Assembly (NCBI GenBank): GCA_026645735.1 | Contig: JAPKMT010000006.1 | Coordinates: 38,739 to 102,738 of the forward strand | DNA from: Flexilinea sp. | Lineage (GTDB): Bacteria; Chloroflexota; Anaerolineae; Anaerolineales; Anaerolineaceae | Reading direction: 5' to 3' | Length of the DNA stretch: 64,000 bases | In this document: piece by piece, positions 586 through 57,650 of the stretch | Numbering within the stretch: the stretch's first letter is position 1 | Layout: each line of letters begins with the position of its first letter | Translations under genes and position numbers: made by a program | The notes under the pieces: model-generated | Database searches by the model: none | What the model was told of the DNA's origin: nothing | What the model saw: only the letters and a program-made list of their open reading frames with translations

Positions 586-712
586 CCAGCAATTCGAAAT
601 TTGGAAATGTTTTCCGAATAAAGAAAGGAAATTTGTTGTTCATATGGTTTTGCTAGAAGCGCAAAACCATATGAACAACAAAGAATTCTTTTTATATATC
701 GAATTACTAATT
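586..712. repeat. Intergenic hairpin element, copy 1
   Basis: Arms at 632-653 and 661-682 are perfectly complementary (22 bp) around a 7-nt loop TAGAAGC. The outer left flank (AATTCGAAATTTGG at 591) and right flank (ATATCGAATTACTAATTC) are also roughly complementary. The element lies between the 3' end of cmk and the upstream region of the partial sensor gene and may terminate the long minus-strand transcript. See copies at 22.2, 23.3, 29.5, 41.9, 51.3 and 57.4 kb. Confidence 0.85.
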
Positions 713-1390
713 CTATTCCTGATATTTGATTAAAGATAGTATTTTCTGGACAACCTGCTCCTGGTTAATTTGATCTGTTTCGATCAGAATGGCATCTTCA
801 GCTGCTTTTAACGGAGCAAGAACACGCGTTGAATCGATCTCATCACGTTTCATTATATCCATCAAAATTTCGTGAAAATCGGCAGTCATTCCTTTCCGAA
901 TATTTTCCTGATATCGTCTTTCTGCCCGTTTTTCAGGAGATGCCAGTAAATAGATTTTTAAAGGTGCATCCGGCATCACCACCGTTCCGATGTCGCGGCC
1001 AACCATCACAACGTTTCCCAGCAAGCCAATTTTCCGTTGTTTTTCTGTCAGGATTTTTCGCACTCCGGGATACGATGCAACAATCGAAACGTTCTTGTCA
1101 ACTTGAGGGGAGCGTATGGCCTGGTTGACCGGTTCTCCGGATAAAAGAACTTCAGTTTCATCTTTTTCCGTATTGACACGCAGTGTAATCTCCATCTCCT
1201 TTGTAATTGCTGTAACATCTTCTTCATTCGCAACGTCTCCCAATTTTTGGAGCGCTACATAAGTAGCCAGCCGATACATCACACCTGTATCAAAGAACAG
1301 ATAGTCCAGTTTTTTTGCCAATAATTTTCCAACAGAGGTTTTTCCTGAAGCAGCAGGACCGTCAATGGCTATTTGCTGTGGTCTTATCAT
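713..1390 (-). CDS. cmk: Cytidylate kinase
   Basis: Phosphorylates CMP/dCMP with ATP in the cytosol, feeding CTP and dCTP pools. The 225-residue length is normal for bacterial Cmk. The P-loop GPAASGKTS is at about residues 10-18, preceded by the family's IAIDG start, followed by the DTGVMYR substrate-binding segment, and VGRDIGTVV with the catalytic-region Arg-Asp is present near residue 130. The C-terminal lid carries Arg residues (RRYQE, KRDEIDSTR). The gene is last in the minus-strand unit that starts at lepA, 14 nt after the preceding membrane protein, so it is probably read through from the glycan cluster; whether it has its own promoter cannot be seen. Confidence 0.97.
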   Translation of the reverse strand: MIRPQQIAIDGPAASGKTSVGKLLAKKLDYLFFDTGVMYRLATYVALQKLGDVANEEDVTAITKEMEITLRVNTEKDETEVLLSGEPVNQAIRSPQVDKNVSIVASYPGVRKILTEKQRKIGLLGNVVMVGRDIGTVVMPDAPLKIYLLASPEKRAERRYQENIRKGMTADFHEILMDIMKRDEIDSTRVLAPLKAAEDAILIETDQINQEQVVQKILSLIKYQE

Positions 1391-1404
1391 AAAATCCTTC
1401 CTTT

Positions 1405-55310: not shown

Positions 55311-55319
55311 AAAGCTCCA

Positions 55320-56984
55320 CTATTCCCAGCTCGATTGAAAATGTTGAATCGCTTTCTGCAAAGAAGCTTCATTTTCTTCGGTCAGGATTCCTTTTTGTTC
55401 AATTTCAGCACCAATTTTCGGATAATAAGACTGCATAAATTCCAAAAAAGCCTTTTCCCATTCTAAAACACGTTTTACAGGAATACTGTCCAGATAGCCG
55501 TGGGTACCTGCGTAAATCGATAAAAATTCTTTTCCGGCAGCATAAGGAGCATATTGCGGTTGTTTCAATAATTCCTGCAAAATCTCTCCTCGTTCCAATT
55601 GTTTCTTTGTCAATTTATCTAAATCAGATCCAAATTGTGCAAAAGAAGCGATTTCATGGTAAGCTGCCATGTCCAGACGTAATCCGCCAGCAATCTTTTT
55701 CATCGCTTTGGATTGAGCCGCGCCACCAACACGGGATACAGAAATTCCGACGTTGATTCCCGGACGAATTCCAGCGTTAAATAAACCGCTCTCCAGGTAT
55801 ATCTGTCCATCTGTAATTGATATCACATTAGTCGGAACATAAGCGGAAACATCCCCCAATAATGTCTCAATAATCGGAAGGGCAGTAGAACTTCCTCCCG
55901 TCTTTTCAACCTGACAAATTTTGATCGATTCTTTATTCGGATGCGTTTCGAACGCTGCGCGAATATCATGAATTGCCATCGGTCCTTGATAGACGATCCC
56001 ATCAGTCGAGTCAGAAACAGAAGCCCTGTTTTTTTCGTAACTATTTGGAACCAGCACATATTTGCGGTCTAATTTTGCTGAACGTTCCAGCAACCGTGAG
56101 TGCAGGTAAAAAAGGTCTCCCGGGTAAGCTTCCCGGCCGGGAGGCCGCCGCATTAATAAAGAGATTTGACGGTAAGCCCAGGCATGTTTGGTCAGATCAT
56201 CATAGATTACCAGAGCATCTCGTCCGGTTTCCATAAATTCCTCGGCCATGGCACAGCCGGCATATGGAGCAATATATTGCAGGGATGCGTTTTCATCTGC
56301 GCCGGCTACGATCACAATCGTATGTTTCATCGCATTCATATCTTCAAGCTTGGCAATGATTTGCGCAACGGTTGACTTCTTCTGTCCAATCGCTACATAT
56401 ATACAAAAAACATCTTTGTCTCTTTGGTTTATGATTGTATCAATCGCGATAGCTGTTTTCCCGGTCTGACGATCCCCGATGATCAATTCACGTTGACCTC
56501 TGCCAATCGGAATCATCGAATCAATTGCTTTAATACCCGTCTGAAGAGGTGTATCCACATCCGATCGTTCATAAATATCCGGAGCAATTCTCTCCAATGG
56601 ACGAAAACCTGAATTCTTGATGGGGCCTTTTCCGTCAATTGGCTCTCCCAATGGATTGATGACTCGACCAAGAAAGAGATTGCCAACGGGAATTGAAGCA
56701 ATTCGGCCCAATTTTCTGACTATCGATCCTTCTTTAATAGAAAAATAGTCACCCAGCACGATCGCGCCGACTGATTCAGTTTCAAGGTTGAAAGCAATCC
56801 CGACAGCCCCATTTTCAAACTCAATAAGCTCCTGACTTTTTACTGTGGCTAATCCGCTGACTCGGGCAATTCCATCACCAACTTCCAAAACAATTCCAAT
56901 TTCTTCTACCTCAAGTTCACTTTTAAATTTATCGATTTTATGAATCAAATCGGAGGTTAAATCACTGATTTTAAATTCTTCCAT
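55320..56984 (-). CDS. atpA: F1 ATP synthase alpha subunit
   Basis: A 554-residue subunit, about 45-50 longer than the usual 500-515. Walker A GDRQTGKTAIA is at about residue 170, with GQKKSTVAQI and YDDLTKHAWAYRQISLLMRRPPGREAYPGDLFYLHSRLLERSAKL intact. Between that point and GGSSTALPIIETLLGDVSAYVPTN lies an enlarged loop (from RKYVLVPNS to CQVEKT, roughly 45 residues more than in E. coli), surface-exposed at that position. First gene of the F1 operon with GAGGAG ribosome site. No atpH, atpF, atpE or atpB precedes it. Confidence 0.97.
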   Translation of the reverse strand: MEEFKISDLTSDLIHKIDKFKSELEVEEIGIVLEVGDGIARVSGLATVKSQELIEFENGAVGIAFNLETESVGAIVLGDYFSIKEGSIVRKLGRIASIPVGNLFLGRVINPLGEPIDGKGPIKNSGFRPLERIAPDIYERSDVDTPLQTGIKAIDSMIPIGRGQRELIIGDRQTGKTAIAIDTIINQRDKDVFCIYVAIGQKKSTVAQIIAKLEDMNAMKHTIVIVAGADENASLQYIAPYAGCAMAEEFMETGRDALVIYDDLTKHAWAYRQISLLMRRPPGREAYPGDLFYLHSRLLERSAKLDRKYVLVPNSYEKNRASVSDSTDGIVYQGPMAIHDIRAAFETHPNKESIKICQVEKTGGSSTALPIIETLLGDVSAYVPTNVISITDGQIYLESGLFNAGIRPGINVGISVSRVGGAAQSKAMKKIAGGLRLDMAAYHEIASFAQFGSDLDKLTKKQLERGEILQELLKQPQYAPYAAGKEFLSIYAGTHGYLDSIPVKRVLEWEKAFLEFMQSYYPKIGAEIEQKGILTEENEASLQKAIQHFQSSWE

Positions 56985-57650
56985 AACTCCTCAGAAAAAA
57001 AACTGTTTATCTATCTTGACCGTTATTCGCATTCATTTCGCAAGATTGTTTTTATTGATTGCCAAACACTTATCGAAAAGCACAAAAATCAAATAGGTTC
57101 GTGCAGGATTGCTTGTAAACGAAAAATGTGCTCTTCAAAAGATCCAATAAGTTTATTATATGTGTATTTTATAAATCAGGAATAAGAATCTCAAAACTGA
57201 ATTTCAAAATTTGCAGGAAATAATCCACTTTAATCGAAAAGCCAGGCAAAATTTTGACTTGCTGTACATAATACATTTCCCGATGAATCAGTAAACTCGC
57301 AATCCGCATGCAAATAACCTTTTCATCGTTTCCTCTTAAGTTTTCACAAAAAAATCCGGAGGAGAAAAAAAAGTATTTCACTTTTTTCAACGTTAAAAAA
57401 GGAAGAAATATTTGTTGTTGCCTTATTTTTGGGAGAAAAATAAAAACAATACAATAAATTTTTTCGTTTGACTCGAAAGACTGACTATTATTTCAGAATG
57501 CAAGATCATTCTGAGGCCGTCAGCCATTCGAAATGTGGATATGCTTTTCGAAATTTGACGACTGTAAAGATTCCTGATAGAATACTTCACATTGGCGTTG
57601 TACCCTTCGCCAAAATTCTATTCATTTTGCTTGAAAGGGCTTGAAAAAAA
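56985..57650. other. Long divergent intergenic region between atpA and rplI
   Basis: 666 nt holding a degenerate hairpin element (57411-57460: TTATTTTT-GGGAG-AAAAATAA core with weaker outer pairing), a hairpin (TCAGAATG 57493-57500 / CATTCTGA 57507-57514 inside CTGAC/GTCAG), an isolated element end (57521-57554, CATTCGAAATGTGGATATGC...), and the rplI promoter. A 73-codon minus-strand frame at 57169-57390 has no ribosome site and no recognisable product. Confidence 0.6.
57555..57583 (+). promoter_or_regulatory. rplI promoter
   Basis: TTGACG (57555-57560) and TAGAAT (57578-57583) with a 17-nt spacer, 67 nt before the rplI ATG. The -35 is next to an isolated hairpin-element end. Confidence 0.65.

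Follow-up and report, generated by a model that had tools for sequence, protein, structure and literature searches.

Seven hairpins lie along a 64,000-nucleotide stretch of Flexilinea sp. DNA (Anaerolineaceae; GenBank assembly GCA_026645735.1, contig JAPKMT010000006.1, positions 38,739 to 102,738; the whole stretch is hereafter the window and the organism the host), and their stems differ from copy to copy yet stay self-complementary. Two questions follow: what kind of element carries these hairpins, and what keeps their arms matched? The first has a nearly certain answer, in that the hairpins belong to a new family of a known kind of element, the miniature inverted-repeat transposable element (MITE). 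For the second, we think it probable, with a good deal of room for doubt, that the family was moved by a DDE transposase with shared ends and that its arms are kept complementary by template switching during replication.

All seven hairpins are present where the original prediction had placed them, and a covariance model trained on 55 genome copies, of which the window supplied three, matches every one at E 0.0076 or better, including the degenerate copy. The predicted outline needs redrawing, as its coordinates span the hairpins only; the elements are about 123 bp long or, in a long form, about 180 bp, and the outer arms ATTCGAAAT/ATTTCGAAT, separate from the hairpin stem, are the element's 17-bp terminal inverted repeats (TIRs), which read CAGYRATTCGAAATATG at the element ends and are flanked by 9-bp target site duplications (TSDs). 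The stem is 22–24 bp with a loop of 3 in most copies (window copies 1 and 6 have larger loops), and there are two main stem types, A and B, with many copies each. By eye, the commonest hairpin foot is AAAATTTG or AAAACTTG. In the long form the element continues into an additional AT-rich tail that contains a palindrome (ATGAAAATTGAATTCAATTTTC or the like), and its end reads GGAATTGCTG or similar (29494–29675, 51272–51454, L014:8980 and L017:16505 onward), and the 8/9 duplication at 51272 suggests that the whole long form inserted there.

The family is abundant. The window and 60 further stretches, 1,109,484 bases of host genome, contain 176 TIR-bounded copies (ends 40–260 bp apart), and the same DNA yields none with a reversed TIR or with any of three shuffled TIRs. 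Full-length copies (110–135 bp) account for 118 of the 176, and the 111 that are 118–129 bp long are too short for a transposase; in a further 45, all below 100 bp, no intact hairpin is visible by eye, and those inspected all differ. The 815,584 host bases not picked via earlier hits hold 107 copies, including 62 at full length; at this density the 3,352,740-base assembly would have about 440 copies, about 255 of them at full length.

Insertion has left a clear signature at many of these sites. A 9-bp TSD with at least seven of nine matches flanks 93 of the 176 host copies (9/9 in 35) against a shuffled mean of 1.2, and other lengths and offsets, compared in the first 72 copies, are close to chance except in frames that fall inside the nine bases or enclose them. 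In F. flocculi, 59 of 238 copies have such a TSD, against 1.4 in shuffles. The family thus seems younger and better preserved in the host, and the transposase gene described below was found only in F. flocculi. Insertion polymorphism in a related genome, which the original prediction had named as a check, is evident as empty sites in both directions between these two species. Both flanks of 53 of the 176 host copies were located in the F. flocculi DNA examined, 27 with at most 120 flank bases unaligned, and at three of the 27 sites (L010:8843, L080:9611 and L082:10465) the element is clearly absent and the target occurs once. In the reverse direction 48 of 244 F. flocculi copies were placed in the host, with 26 rows, representing 25 distinct places, close; one of the 25 (FA 739830) is clearly empty with a single target copy. 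The remaining close sites are filled, rearranged or inexact, and a further F. flocculi candidate (FB 78615, count -9) was dropped when the alignment did not bear it out.

The family is also narrowly distributed. Among 84,980 species genomes, where the host's own records may be absent, the exact stem pattern occurs in two, on 11 stretches of F. flocculi TC1 and on 9 of a metagenome-assembled genome from the Anaerolineaceae. The covariance model has matches in five of 31 genomes, the host and four others of its genus, and in none of the remaining 26; matches per genome are 115, 115, 108, 10 and 1, where 115 is the number scored. The proposal of a lineage-specific, high-copy, MITE-like mobile element is borne out by the 176 copies, their TIRs and TSDs, and matches within a single genus. 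Bacterial MITEs such as Chunjie and those treated in passages of the review PMC10969869, where Correia, RUP and ERIC are named, are similarly short, gene-free and intergenic, with TIRs, direct target repeats, high copy number and a parent insertion sequence with the same ends; the Flexilinea family differs in having a central 22–24 bp hairpin, arms that differ together between copies, and a loop in both orientations, which those passages do not describe.

A likely parent is present in F. flocculi. A PF01609 search of that genome and the metagenome-assembled one identified two places, both in F. flocculi (L107 and L108), and the second is an insertion sequence of 1,632 bp (L108:821–2452) with TIRs matching those of the MITE at 0 and 1 mismatches, a 446-aa transposase frame, and flanking copies of a perfect 9-bp TSD, GCATTCTGT. 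The transposase has weak DDE_Tnp_1-assoc (PF13808) and DDE_Tnp_1 (PF01609) matches, in the same order as in insertion sequences with both domains, which we take to be ISAs1-like, but differs from these in falling below both Pfam cut-offs and in having no NCBIfam match at E 0.01. Among 7,536 candidates, 3,767 are its relatives at E 0.001 or better, and two of eight relatives scanned have an NCBIfam match at E 0.01, both far under cut-off. The MITEs were likely mobilised by this DDE transposase, whose insertion sequence shares their ends. No parent insertion sequence was seen in the 1.11 Mb of host DNA, where neither long self-repeats nor TIR pairs lying far apart pointed convincingly to one. 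The sole PF01609 match in the host assembly is an IS1634-type transposase frame at a contig start (L045:26–1057, contig C83); it was set aside as a parent, the only nearby TIR pair being an ordinary MITE copy, as was the IS1634-type transposase of L107 in F. flocculi as a partner, which has no such ends within 4 mismatches.

The original prediction had also entertained a repetitive extragenic palindromic (REP) element, moved by a RAYT tyrosine transposase, and the family does resemble one in being short, palindromic, intergenic and high in copy number; the GTAG and CGTC types treated in PMC3733652 are likewise palindromic, extragenic and present in many copies. We nevertheless regard this as highly improbable. 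PF01797, the RAYT domain, has no match in the host assembly (92% complete) in a search that was positive in five of 14 control genomes, and the likely partner is instead a DDE transposase whose insertion sequence shares the TIRs. Compared with REP elements as described there, the MITE is longer, has 17-bp TIRs and 9-bp TSDs, comes with no RAYT that could be found, and has no downstream-of-gene bias.

The stems vary in concert. In the 55 aligned copies, 99.0% of the cells at 20 stem pairs are paired compared with 85.4% in shuffles, and 133 cells are changed on both sides compared with 46.9; none of 500 shuffles reaches either value, and 15 of the 20 pairs have changes on both sides. Both the significant covariation and the many more intergenic copies that the original prediction had proposed looking for were therefore found. 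Although defined by their TIRs, the 55 copies were fetched near matches of a hairpin copy; a larger TIR-defined host set consists of the 94 of 118 full-length copies with a gap-free stem, and has 89 paired and 42 one-sided changes in 1,692 cells (18 core pairs). In F. flocculi, the 80 of 130 full-length copies that are gap-free (1,440 cells) have 153 paired changes, 186 one-sided changes, and 30 cells in which both sides changed without pairing. Counting distinct events is preferable, because some paired changes are inherited or reflect exchange between stem types A and B, and the host has 39 distinct core double events, 20 in one copy only and 19 in more than one. Transversions make up 36 of 65 distinct paired changes and do not pass through G-U; the transition share (29/65) does not differ from that outside the stem (123/331; Fisher p 0.27). 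Adjacent paired changes number 11 versus 7.3 in the host (p 0.096) and 27 versus 18.9 in F. flocculi (p 0.016), and there is one clear tract, with four paired changes within five pairs.

Covariation this strong would fit a hairpin whose structure, in RNA or DNA, is under selection at each site, for example as a protein-binding cruciform, a stabiliser of mRNA ends or a bidirectional terminator, the paired changes being ordinary compensatory evolution. It is no proof of an RNA here, however, since the same signal would be expected from template switching in DNA. A polymerase would stall in the hairpin, switch to the nascent strand or the other arm, copy it, and switch back; this would rewrite one arm and could invert the loop, and deletion of the hairpin would yield the short copies. 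With arm-to-arm copying, the element would need no RNA function to resemble a covarying RNA. Such outcomes have precedents: template switching homogenises inverted-repeat arms and inverts spacers in yeast (PMC8604942), turns imperfect palindromes into perfect ones in E. coli (PMC7202029), and, as PMC8794818 argues, can create and maintain RNA hairpins in RNA genes. The quasipalindromes in the parts of these three papers drawn on here are like the MITE hairpins in having arms perfected by copying and loops or spacers that may invert; in the present case the process would be read from more than 100 replicate full-length elements in each of the two genomes, with many of the elements dated by a 9-bp TSD.

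The loops provide one means of telling these explanations apart. In both genomes the three-base loop is found either way round with respect to the flanks, and in the host GAA occurs 29 times and TTC 16, GGA 12 and TCC 3, AAA 10 and TTT 10, and AGA 3 and TCT 2. For pairs of host copies the chance that the loops are reverse complements is 0.139, close to that of identity (0.159) and unlike reversal (0.025) or complementation (0.031); the corresponding values in F. flocculi are 0.119, 0.116, 0.022 and 0.023.

Placement provides another. Full-length host copies between convergent, divergent and tandem genes number 12, 24 and 49, or 0.56, 0.71 and 0.58 per intergenic kb using crude ORF (open reading frame) calls, and 33 of the 118 lie within a called ORF or at the edge of a stretch; placement tracks intergenic space, with no concentration downstream of genes. 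Two of three element hairpins in the 22–30 kb region (10 of 16 rows) score as terminator-like on both strands, which favours a selected structure, but the density between divergent genes is not below that between convergent or tandem ones, and intrinsic termination was rejected as the main role since placement is independent of the direction of transcription. The structured RNA family proposed as an alternative in the original prediction is not supported either: the window has no Rfam match at gathering score, copies do not concentrate downstream of genes, the loops flip, and many double changes are transversions.

The positions of the breaks and the fate of decaying copies also speak against selection. 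Breaks in host stems cluster near the loop and at the foot, leaving the middle matched, a pattern less marked in F. flocculi, and the G-C clamp pairs beside the loop are among the most often broken. F. flocculi stems decay, and one copy there has a concerted four-pair difference in an otherwise broken stem; the 45 short host copies and the predominance of transversions likewise sit poorly with selection. Thus, although the covariation and the intact host stem cores described below are as selection would have them, we consider it unlikely to be what maintains the hairpin. DNA copying accounts for the strong covariation better than RNA selection does, because of the loops in both orientations, the transversions, the placement, the break positions, and the concerted differences in place described below.

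A further explanation is that variation arises only between source elements: master copies would need a perfect hairpin for transposition, and their copies would be too young to have decayed. The TSDs bear directly on this and serve as a clock, because both copies are identical at landing. In 63 gap-free host copies with a TSD of at least 7/9, mismatches affect 9.3% of TSD positions, a minimum since the 7/9 threshold shuts out worse TSDs, which go unrecognised, but only 1.8% of stem core pairs are broken (15.9% for the TIR arms), and the copies are thus not young. Stem cores are also far less broken than the TSDs predict, with breakage of 1.3, 2.1 and 1.9% at 9, 8 and 7 TSD matches. Nine further host copies with a TSD of at least 7/9 were left out of this comparison for insertions or deletions in the stem, and in 31 with worse TSDs 3.9% of the stem is broken. 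The TIR arms are not kept matched, with a mismatch of 0.170 across all 94 gap-free host copies and 0.169 in shuffles. Maintenance of stem matching after insertion is clear in the host and weak in F. flocculi.

Two insertions shared by the two species show concerted arm differences in place. A search by immediate flanks among 300 host and 512 F. flocculi candidates gave seven pairs. At host L009:3484, which lies in one colinear block of 84% identity, the two species differ on both arms at pairs 12, 14, 15 and 16 from the loop, and each species has these pairs matched; elsewhere in this stem of 23 pairs, six are broken in F. flocculi and two in the host. Two concerted paired differences occur at L009:12427, a shared insertion found via flank placement outside the seven pairs. 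At L014:16773 the hairpin is kept in F. flocculi and gone from the host copy. Five candidates (L079:5046, L086:1201, L104:1959, L105:19483 and L101:4025) were not counted, as the alignment or the duplications failed to prove the same insertion.

Variation confined to source elements would account for the two main stem types with many copies each, for the 19 of 39 distinct core double events present in more than one host copy, and for the lack of a clear rise in paired changes with age. It is opposed by the clock, by the concerted differences at two shared insertions, and by the absence, by eye, of a MITE-like hairpin near the ends of the L108 insertion sequence, and we consider it quite unlikely.

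Several observations weigh against post-insertion template switching in a DDE-mobilised family. Among host loops, GTA (3), TAA (3), CTT (1), TCA (1) and GAG (1) have no reverse-complement partner. Two of the shared hairpins give no support: that at L106:1613, with 98% identical flanks, was already broken and has one-sided changes, being broken in both species, and that at L089:10106 is identical in both. The flanks near these two positions are 98–100% identical between the species, most other matched flanks being 75–92% identical, and recent DNA exchange between the two species is possible. The L108-type transposase gene is found in one of the 31 genomes, at the F. flocculi coordinates, and not in the host assembly. 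Of the full-length copies, 24 of 118 in the host and 50 of 130 in F. flocculi were kept out of the counts for stem insertions or deletions (or, in the host, for want of a clear hairpin), and part of the paired changes counted is type A/B exchange, representing no new event. Paired changes per host copy by age are 0.77, 1.07, 0.67 and 1.06, and without a clear rise many may be inherited from source copies. In 25 gap-free F. flocculi copies with a TSD of at least 7/9, 10.7% of core pairs are broken compared with 14.2% TSD mismatch, and breakage climbs with TSD decay (3.7, 10.2 and 13.3%; n=3, 12 and 10). The contrast between the species argues against a uniform mechanism, or the species differ in its rate.

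A broader reading, on which we are evenly divided, is that this family is a natural recorder of template switching, with a few hundred hairpins per genome, many dated by TSDs, carrying covariation written by mutation alone at rates differing between sister species. If true, covariation that is usually taken as proof of a functional RNA can arise by mutation alone. Covariation tests on repeat-derived hairpins could mislead, as the shuffle-proof covariation here comes with signs of arm-to-arm DNA copying. More than 100 replicate copies in each of two genomes, together with the internal clock, could make the rate and tract length of arm copying measurable in natural bacteria, and the seeming difference between two related species allows a comparison; a MITE and its likely parent insertion sequence are also now available for the Anaerolineae. 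A close parallel is in the IS605-derived stem loops of Borrelia plasmids, which show base-pair compensatory changes (PMC2775950). As presented in passages of that paper, these too are mobile-element stem loops, some of them free-standing; they differ in flanking IS605, in being kept in some cases via G-U pairs and in their few examples, and those passages contain no TSD clock or template switching. In the open-licence literature on MITEs and template switching, no paper on MITE hairpin arms was apparent by title or abstract start, and no title on repeats or mobile elements was among the matches listed for Flexilinea.

The window copies are listed below. The original prediction placed all of them in intergenic space, and the gene contexts agree with the ORF list for six, the gene beside copy 1 running towards the window edge. 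Copy 2 overlaps the 3' end of an ORF ending at 22225, its hairpin being intergenic. The site of copy 1 in F. flocculi has no element between matched flanks (gap -8; 48 left-flank bases are unaligned and the left edge is inexact). The right end of copy 4 was set by eye, as was its TSD of about 6/9.

Table 1. Copies of the MITE family in the window (positions are those of the window).
Feature	Coordinates	Strand	Details
MITE copy 1, type A stem	587..709	+	hairpin 632-682; TSD ATTCTATTC on both sides, 578-586 and 710-718, 9/9
MITE copy 2, worn ends	22191..22312	+	hairpin 22235-22285; stem 24/24 paired; 87.4 bits
MITE copy 3, type B-like stem	23258..23379	-	hairpin 23286-23332; TSD 7/9
MITE copy 4, long form	29494..29675	+	123-bp core 29494-29616; hairpin 29539-29589; AT-rich tail with palindrome
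MITE copy 5, shortened, worn	41910..42014	+	hairpin 41944-41994; 24-pair stem (one mismatch allowed); 59.7 bits
MITE copy 6, long form, 183 bp	51272..51454	.	TSD 8/9; hairpin 51376-51428
MITE copy 7, degenerate	57388..57503	-	remnant hairpin 57411-57460; 38.7 bits

Weaker model matches, at E 0.011 to 0.095, are present at 57197–57264, 36616–36714, 19350–19471 and 57521–57597, and may be worn or hairpin-less copies. We also note that 29485–41651, a segment of about 12.2 kb that contains a family 2 glycosyltransferase gene, is unmatched at the syntenic F. flocculi place, where about 125 bases separate the matched flanks; MITE copy 4 is at the left end of the host's 12.2 kb.

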